Below, in pieces: positions 44,197-44,391 of a stretch of 64,000 nucleotides of DNA. The notes below the pieces were generated by a model that did no database searches, was not told the DNA's origin, and saw nothing but the letters and a program-made list of their open reading frames with translations. The number at the start of each line of letters is the position of its first letter. The first letter of the stretch is position 1. This DNA is from Mesorhizobium sp. YIM 152430 (GTDB taxonomy: Bacteria > Pseudomonadota > Alphaproteobacteria > Rhizobiales > Rhizobiaceae). The DNA is taken from NCBI RefSeq assembly GCF_029210365.1, contig NZ_JARGES010000015.1:248001-312000 (forward strand). The letters are read 5' to 3'. Position numbers and translations under genes: made by a program.

Positions 44197-44225
44197 TTGT
44201 CACGCAATCATCGCTCGGCTATCTC
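44197..44225 (+). promoter_or_regulatory. Promoter of the leuL-leuA transcript
   Basis: TTGTCA (44197-44202), 17-bp spacer, TATCTC (44220-44225). Start of transcription 6-8 bases downstream would fall at 44231-44233, i.e. at or next to the leader-peptide ATG, so the leader may be translated without a 5' UTR. Confidence 0.65.
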
Positions 44226-44232
44226 TTCGCCC

Positions 44233-44343
44233 ATGACTTCGTCGCGCGCCCCTTTCCCGATCTTCCCGGCCTTCGCTGCCGGCGATCGCGTGCGTCTTGC
44301 CTCGCTTCTTCTCCTTCTTAGCGGCGATCGTCGGGTTGGCTGA
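44233..44343 (+). CDS. leuL: Leucine leader peptide (LeuL)
   Basis: 36 aa. Five consecutive leucine codons (CTT CTT CTC CTT CTT, 44305-44319) plus a sixth at 44296 sit near the end, followed by S-G-D-R-R-V-G and TGA at 44341. No ribosome-binding site precedes the ATG, which coincides with the predicted transcription start. This is the hallmark of ribosome-mediated attenuation in response to charged tRNA-Leu, placed 120 bp before leuA. A shorter GTG-initiated version (44290) is possible. Leaderless translation of the analogous trpL leader has been described in Sinorhizobium meliloti. Confidence 0.75.
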
Positions 44344-44391
44344 AGGAGCGCCCGGCGGTCGAAGTGCCGCCGAGACCTGGCAAAGCTCCTT
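44311..44391 (+). promoter_or_regulatory. Attenuator-like switch between leuL and leuA
   Basis: AAGGAGC (44343-44349, right at the leuL stop) can pair either with CTCCTT inside the Leu-codon run (44311-44316) or with GCTCCTT (44385-44391). A stable hairpin CGGCGG / CCGCCG (44353-44358, 44367-44372) lies between. Ribosome stalling at the Leu codons would hide the first partner and favour the second. No T run follows, so the terminator itself is not identified. Confidence 0.55.

Follow-up and report, generated by a model that had tools for sequence, protein, structure and literature searches.

A short open reading frame (ORF) with a run of leucine codons precedes leuA in Mesorhizobium sp. YIM 152430, and the question raised by this locus is whether the ORF and the RNA around it allow the cell to adjust leuA to its supply of leucine and, if so, by which mechanism. 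The initial annotation of the window (the whole stretch of 64,000 nt analyzed here) had proposed a leaderless leucine leader peptide followed by a switchable stem. This report describes what the DNA of the window and of related genomes suggests about that proposal, with emphasis on the leader ORF, the fold of its RNA and the step that would finally affect leuA. The leader is real and highly conserved, and it probably lets the cell raise leuA when leucine is short, without the usual transcription stop signal.

Leaders of comparable design have been described in other bacteria. In Actinobacteria the LEU element, located before leuA, combines a leader ORF that contains a Leu run with a pseudoknot and with a base stem in which the leucine codons pair with the Shine-Dalgarno sequence (SD) of leuA (Seliverstov et al., 2005; PMC1262725, accessible in part). 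According to the accessible part of that paper, its discoverers left the mechanism open and favor a regulatory protein, and mutations of leucine codons in the leuA leader of Streptomyces coelicolor are at odds with classical attenuation (PMC1262725). In Sinorhizobium meliloti, trpL is reported to be leaderless and belongs to an attenuator that releases the small RNA rnTrpL (PMC7298713, PMC10117765).

The leader locus in the window

Direct reading of the sequence recovered every part named in the initial annotation at the position assigned to it, including the 36-codon leader ORF with five consecutive leucine codons, which is here called leuL (Table 1). By leuA, the nearest named relatives are two Aliihoeflea strains (90–95% identical, among the 80 top-ranking named loci out of more than 583). 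Across loci the start of leuA was set by rule, as the nearest start with an SD, independently of annotation.

Table 1. Elements of the leuA leader and their positions in the window.
Feature	Position	Strand	Detail or basis
Promoter, sigma-70-like (putative)	44197–44225	+	TTGTCA 44197–44202, 17-nt spacer, TATCTC 44220–44225, then 7 nt to ATG
leuL leader ORF, 36 codons	44233–44343	+	ATG 44233, stop TGA 44341–44343, without SD
Leu codons CTT CTT CTC CTT CTT, presumed regulatory	44305–44319	+	Sequence, codon counts
S1 5' arm CGATCGTCGGG	44325–44335	+	Covariation
S1 3' arm CCCGGCGGTCG	44351–44361	+	Covariation
S2 5' arm AAGGAGC	44343–44349	+	Inside S1 loop, overlaps leader stop TGA 44341–44343
S2 3' arm GCTCCTT	44385–44391	+	Covariation
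Loops of the predicted pseudoknot	L1 44336–44342 (7 nt), L2 44350 (1 nt), L3 44362–44384 (23 nt)	+	Sequence, alignment
Untranslated spacer, S2 to leuA SD	44392–44449	+	No terminator found
leuA Shine-Dalgarno GAGGAG	44450–44455	+	Sequence
leuA, 2-isopropylmalate synthase, TIGR00970 / PRK03739 type	44463–46187	+	TIGR00970 772.5 bits vs. cut-off 697.4

Upstream of this locus, the window holds a 35-nt repeat (CCCCCACCCCATACCCC...) in three copies, two direct and one inverted (42003–42037, 42107–42141, and 42612–42646), which is perhaps a REP-like element. Between copies of this repeat lies an ORF of 120 aa on the minus strand (42175–42537), which we take to be reminiscent of a DUF559-type nuclease.

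Leader ORF and leaderless layout

All of the 158 distinct regions contain a leader ORF whose end coincides with stem S2 or shortly precedes it and which has at least two consecutive leucine codons near that end. An in-frame ATG lies behind a hexamer starting with TA in 157/158, and 151 of these 157 leaders measure 36–41 codons. These counts, like the leader codon counts given below, cover the loci with the core pattern, and the 158 regions include a Sinorhizobium plasmid locus (L117) that is also among the 69 aligned sequences and lies outside the 189 loci searched with the covariance model. Under a stricter rule, with which more than one in-frame ATG per leader is possible, the layout TTG-N17/18-TAnnnn-N6-8-ATG was found in 152/158 distinct leaders vs. 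13 of 17,659 other ATGs (80 named loci, outside the leader stretch). An SD-like 4-mer stands ahead of 10/157 leader ATGs and at 139/154 leuA starts, where any of the three nearest candidate starts was accepted.

The predicted promoter and the ATG of leuL thus have the layout expected for a leaderless mRNA, and from this geometry transcription is presumed to start at or next to 44233. The leuL promoter was absent from the output of a generic promoter scan of 44100–44520. The trpL of the same genome (MNALSHTNKWWWAR) has a matching layout, TTGCCG-N17-TATGAG-N7-ATG; this leaderless-type leader (L111) lies upstream of trpE, about 4.7 kb beyond the end of the window, and a search of the genome with the Rfam Trp_leader model (RF00513) gave no match despite its presence.

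Conservation among relatives

The 181 loci with the core pattern were reduced to 96 representatives, and 69 distinct sequences from these (alignment A1) served to build a covariance model (R1). The leuA type of the window was found in 377/394 genomes of a family sample at E ≤ 1e-150, and ten family genomes of 0.9–2.0 Mb gave no leuA match at that threshold (G009, G064, G095, G110, G112, G186, G245, G333, G375, and G404). R1 matches 188/189 rhizobial leuA loci (80/80, 84/85, and 24/24), a set made up of the 80 top-ranking named loci out of more than 583 and of 109 of the 377 family genomes, mostly higher-scoring ones; 68 of the 189 loci also trained R1 and some genomes are present in both sets. 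The sole miss is a locus in a 1.1-Mb genome (L104), with a weak match of 13.6 bits. In the genome of the window, the next R1 match after the leuA site has an E-value of 0.92.

Beyond the family, R1 matches 19/297 genomes of an order-wide sample at E ≤ 0.001. The 18 strong matches, six of them from one genus of another family, all adjoin leuA, and the weak nineteenth (L226) has no leuA beside it. In a class-wide sample, 10/240 genomes were matched at E ≤ 0.01, namely the genome of the window and nine with weak matches, two of which (L227 and L230) adjoin leuA. Searched with Rfam, the window gave no match at the gathering score and the region 44150–44480 none at E ≤ 10.

Alignment with relatives, which the initial annotation had suggested as a check, showed that the leader, its leucine codons and the AAGGAGC/GCTCCTT partners are kept. 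The ORF, the promoter geometry, the bias toward CUU and the position before leuA are all conserved, which supports the earlier view of a leaderless-type leucine leader that would act in cis on leuA.

Leucine codons

The run of five leucine codons is unique in the six frames of the window, and shuffled sequences contain 0.2 such runs on average (n = 10), which is weak evidence taken alone; conservation of the leader in relatives is decisive. Within the final 16 codons of the leaders (130 distinct ends), CTT accounts for 404/685 leucine codons (59%), compared with 194/4871 (4%) in leuA genes, counted over 134 loci with duplicates retained and L115–L119 included. The final leucine codon of the leader is CTT in 127/130 distinct leader ends, and the alignment shows this last CTT and the A after it to be conserved. 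In the variable N-terminal part of the leader, differences at the three codon positions amount to 0.129, 0.136, and 0.170, i.e., a weak excess at the third position. We read these patterns as selection that would act on the leucine codons and the RNA rather than on the remaining peptide.

RNA fold: two stems and a predicted pseudoknot

Two stems are conserved downstream of the leucine codons. In the alignment of 69 sequences, 99.7% of the cells of S1 (CGATCGTCGGG/CCCGGCGGTCG, 11 bp) are paired, and the stem contains two pairs changed on both sides, from A-U to G-C in 15 sequences and from C-G to U-A in one. The inner 6 bp of S2 are paired in 98.3% of the cells, with both-side changes in 3/6 pairs, and its outermost A-U pair in just 78.0% (69 sequences). 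The observed values of S1 and S2 were reached by 0/500 shuffles, which leave relatedness in place, and sliding the partners of the two stems against each other lowers pairing from 98.4% to 56.0% or less. The loop of S1 holds the stop codon of the leader and the 5' arm of S2, and this arrangement, together with the loop lengths, suits an H-type pseudoknot in which both stems presumably coexist. Single-sequence minimum free energies are near those of shuffles (z = −0.52 for the whole leader, z = −1.06 for the S1–S2 region alone), and none of the minimum-energy folds contains S1 and S2 jointly, the folding program being unable to draw pseudoknots.

The AAGGAGC/GCTCCTT stem proposed earlier, which is S2, is therefore conserved, with three of its six main pairs changed on both sides; the fold drawn then was incomplete, the 11-bp S1 and the pseudoknot topology having been overlooked. 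The proposed switch, in which AAGGAGC would pair with either the Leu run or GCTCCTT, is not supported, as its pairing with the Leu run does not clearly exceed that in shuffles. In the register originally given, CTCCTT of the Leu run with AAGGAG, 61.6% of the cells are paired (69 sequences), a value reached by 480/500 shuffles (range 91–499/500), and this pairing is complete solely in the genus of the window and a few others. The more general register CTTCTTC/GAAGGAG is paired in 89.4% of the cells, which 88/500 shuffles reach (range 31–93/500).

Terminator search and spacer

No terminator-like site was found in 44100–44520. Among 153 loci, a stretch with at least 6 T in 8 nt occurs downstream of S2 in one and with at least 5 T in eight, and downstream of S1 the maximum across rhizobial loci is 4 T in 9 nt. 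The remark in the initial annotation that no clear poly-U terminator is seen hence holds for the region in the window and, bar 1/153, across loci; since such a terminator is lacking, the mechanism would differ from textbook attenuation. Two loci of other Alphaproteobacteria (L237 and L312) show a T-run directly past S1 (TTTTTT and ATTTTT, respectively), about 100–110 nt upstream of the leuA match, and S1 could act there as an intrinsic terminator.

Between S2 and the beginning of the leuA match lie 59 to 239 nt, with a median of 109 nt (153 loci). Over the initial 50 nt past S2, C outnumbers G in 99/153 loci vs. 56/156 in the background upstream of promoters; this bias of the spacer is weak and does not amount to a rut site.

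Pairing of the leucine codons with the leuA Shine-Dalgarno

Pairing is possible in the window between CUUCUUCUCCUU and GAGGAGACGAAG, the latter located ahead of the leuA ATG, at 11/12 positions by eye and as a 12-position helix in gapless scoring. Leucine codons TCGCTCCTG and SD CAGGAGCGA of L227/L238 form 9 bp without mismatch, those of L230 form 8 bp, and a comparable pairing is seen by eye in the actinobacterium Nonomuraea gerenzanensis (L115). The gapless score of the Leu run is 17.3 with leuA SDs vs. 15.8 with other SDs (5/1000 permutations as good). The corresponding mean duplex energies are −13.9 vs. −11.6 kcal/mol, with a mean percentile of 0.29 (chance 0.5), in a test that skipped 59 rows because they lacked a clear leuA SD, an S1 anchor or a usable start; it supersedes a first duplex test (−14.9 vs. 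−14.1 kcal/mol, 9/200 permutations).

A matching of Leu run and SD by species appeared in a redundant set of 78 cases (3/2000 permutations as good) and was absent in 34 non-redundant cases (408/2000). In a position test, the Leu window contains the best complement of the SD in 48/146 rhizobial loci (41.3 when SDs are shuffled) and in 16/56 other Alphaproteobacteria (8.7 when shuffled); in the window itself this complement lies elsewhere, before the leader ATG. Taken together, a base stem of leucine codons and SD does not appear to be clearly kept in the rhizobial family. Pairing of the 3' arm of S2 with the leuA SD, a further candidate, showed no enrichment (mean percentile 0.43, 236/1000 permutations as good).

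Related elements in other Alphaproteobacteria

In a class sample, this type of leuA was found in 110/385 genomes at E ≤ 1e-120, the genome of the window included, and the upstream regions of 90 of the 109 others were examined. CGACTTA occurs on the sense strand in 54/88 upstream regions of at least 200 nt and is absent from 34/88; one occurrence is antisense, and shuffles predict 1.4. The motif reads CTN CGA CTT A (Leu-Arg-Leu) in 52 of its 74 instances, and 34 of the 74 have an in-frame ATG in leaderless geometry under a looser rule. A stem that starts 2–6 nt past the CTT and carries the leader stop codon at its loop defines 25 elements, i.e., those with S1 and an in-frame stop at the S1 loop. 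An S2 helix beside the stem exceeds shuffles modestly, at p ≤ 0.05 in 4/25 and at p ≤ 0.2 in 10/25 (combined p = 0.022), and an unrestricted test (83 candidates, 51 with S1) gave 5/51 and 20/51 at the same thresholds. The design of CUU-A, stem and stop codon in the loop thus seems to be broader than the Leu run, and the pseudoknot in these other Alphaproteobacteria is only partly supported.

Several loci (e.g., L230, L240, L247, L256, L273, and L276) have tandem leader elements before leuA. The first is a short ORF with CTNCGACTTA, often of leaderless type, about 270–330 nt upstream of the leuA match, and the second lies about 110–180 nt upstream of it. A search for CTNCGACTTA in five genomes, aimed at further regulated genes, returned 17 matches, three in a leuA leader and 14 without leuA among the listed downstream ORFs of at least 120 aa. 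A Shinella plasmid (L118) carries a second, more distant leuA-like gene, 52% identical to the leuA of the window, with its own variant of the element and an ORF ending in ...LLLLVISVALRLTGGRRA.

Proposed mechanism and alternative explanations

The explanation which we regard as fairly likely is that the region before leuA senses leucine and acts on this gene in cis, as a variant of the LEU element in which a stalled ribosome would control a pseudoknot and the output perhaps depends on Rho. The transcript would begin at or next to the leader AUG and a ribosome would translate leuL, whose CUU/CUC run ends 5 nt before the H-type pseudoknot (S1 plus S2) that would enclose the stop codon of the leader. 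With plentiful leucine, the ribosome would clear the run, melt S1 and terminate at the UGA within the knot, leaving the untranslated spacer exposed, and the message would be cut short ahead of leuA. With scarce charged tRNA-Leu, the ribosome would be parked on the CUU codons, the knot would fold intact ahead of it and leuA would be expressed. We infer from the sequence that the leader is translated, that stalling is the signal, that both helices coexist and that the knot is the switch. Sensing of codons is favored because it explains the ORF, the choice of codons and their fixed position before the knot. The output, the least certain step, is perhaps Rho-dependent termination in the spacer, which is favored because the spacer varies in length, a terminator is absent and pairing with the SD is not clearly conserved. 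A weak point is that the knot could refold after the ribosome leaves the stop codon, so that the logic needs kinetic coupling. Of the features of classical ribosome-mediated attenuation, the locus has the leader ORF with regulatory codons, and no intrinsic terminator was found; as to a mutually exclusive antiterminator, S1 and S2 could coexist as a pseudoknot, and pairing of AAGGAG with the Leu run is unsupported.

Several other explanations deserve consideration. Translational control as in the canonical LEU element, where the Leu run would pair with the leuA SD and block initiation until a stalled ribosome frees the SD, would account for the pairing at 11/12 positions in the window, for the helices of L227/L238 and L230 (with a similar one in L115 by eye) and for the stronger pairing of the Leu run with leuA SDs than with other SDs. 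It is nonetheless unlikely as the account of the rhizobial family, given the slight gain over shuffled SDs in the position test, the best complement of the window lying elsewhere, the equally good pairing among species in the non-redundant set, the variable spacer before leuA and the lack of enrichment for S2 3' arm/SD pairing; in lineages with good pairing, such as L227/L238 and L230, control of this kind is likely. Classical transcription attenuation, with the S2 hairpin as intrinsic terminator and S1 as antiterminator, is very unlikely: S1 and S2 do overlap topologically, an ORF with leucine codons precedes them and a T-run follows S1 directly in L237 and L312, but a tract of at least 6 T in 8 nt follows S2 in just 1/153 rhizobial loci, S2 of the window, with 35 nt between its arms, lacks the compactness of a terminator, and no terminator was found in the window region.

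The conserved RNA could instead be the binding site of a protein, as the discoverers of the LEU element proposed, translation of the leader being incidental. Conserved unpaired positions, e.g., the CTTA before S1, are in keeping with this, and the leucine-codon mutations of S. coelicolor, as told in the accessible part of PMC1262725, speak against codon sensing in Streptomyces; a protein site leaves unexplained, however, the leader ORF, the leaderless-type promoter and the enrichment of CUU over and above the single conserved codon (404 CTT codons in 130 leaders), and we consider it improbable. That the ORF is spurious and its Leu run an accident of a pyrimidine-rich stretch is hardly credible: pyrimidine tracts do yield leucine codons by chance, yet R1 matches all but one of the 189 loci and every one of the 158 distinct regions has the leader ORF.

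Reverting to leucine sensing through a stalled ribosome, a wider and more tentative proposal is that the leader represents a leucine-sensing family, unmatched in Rfam, that accompanies leuA genes of the TIGR00970 type in Alphaproteobacteria and Actinobacteria. In this family a short, often leaderless ORF would end inside its own pseudoknot, with a CUU codon a few nt before it, and a starved ribosome would set the state of the knot and the expression of leuA without a terminator. If true, this would extend ribosome-mediated attenuation by a separate kind that works through a pseudoknot and would add an RNA family missed by the Rfam version searched. It would also suggest that a leader ORF ending within a pseudoknot is a reusable regulatory design. 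The actinobacterial LEU element, unsettled since 2005, would be linked to genetically tractable rhizobia, so that the mechanism of a leucine leader with a pseudoknot and no terminator could be tested.

Comparison with known leader systems

The enterobacterial leu operon leader is presumably the system covered by the Rfam family Leu_leader (RF00512). The locus in the window has in common with it the leucine codons before leuA, and differs in giving no match to the Rfam family and in having no terminator that could be found. Like leuL, the trpL of S. meliloti is a leaderless-type ORF of a rhizobium that carries regulatory codons and precedes a biosynthetic gene; it forms part of a transcription attenuator that releases rnTrpL, whereas no terminator was found at leuL (PMC7298713 and PMC10117765, as far as accessible).

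The initial annotation had regarded a leaderless leuL as an extension of the known scheme. This novelty was overstated, since a leaderless leuL1 (MRFGLLLLSCRGEGL) with a mapped 5' end and without a typical Rho-independent terminator has been reported from Streptomyces lividans TK24 (PMC8079986, accessible in part), where a missing terminator is also cited for other Actinobacteria, and since the combination of leader and pseudoknot is that of the LEU element (PMC1262725, in its accessible part). In the accessible literature surveyed, this leader was found described neither for Rhizobiales nor for the remaining Alphaproteobacteria; it may be treated in Vitreschak 2004 and Lopatovskaya 2010. Both leuL1 and leuL are leaderless-type leaders before leuA with a Leu run and no typical Rho-independent terminator; leuL1 has 15 residues and a mapped 5' end, whereas leuL has 36 (36–41 in most relatives) and a 5' end predicted from its promoter (PMC8079986, in part).

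The single actinobacterial case compared, N. gerenzanensis L115, was reached through a plasmid collection. Its leader (MLRGLLLSCRGGGL) has TAGCGT 7 nt before the ATG and places its stop codon within the loop of an S1 stem, and the S2 of this case has a p-value of 0.095; by eye its core resembles that of the window in CTCCTTCTTAGC, the stop in the S1 loop and the AAGG after the stop. No such leader ORF was found before leuA in two Streptomyces plasmid copies (L116 and L119).

The closest parallel is the LEU element itself, which, in the accessible part of its description (PMC1262725), shares with the family of the window the location upstream of leuA, the leader ORF with a Leu run, the pseudoknot and the lack of a described classical terminator. 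In the LEU element the Leu run and the leuA SD form the base stem, whereas in the family of the window the leuA match begins 59–239 nt past S2 and a stem of this kind is not clearly kept; the element of the window is farther from leuA, belongs to another phylum and has another S2 sequence. The base stem is not clearly common to both because the three tests of SD pairing gave mixed results. Judged by its sequence, the family of the window is a variant of the LEU element which shares with it the leader and the predicted pseudoknot topology and not clearly the base stem.
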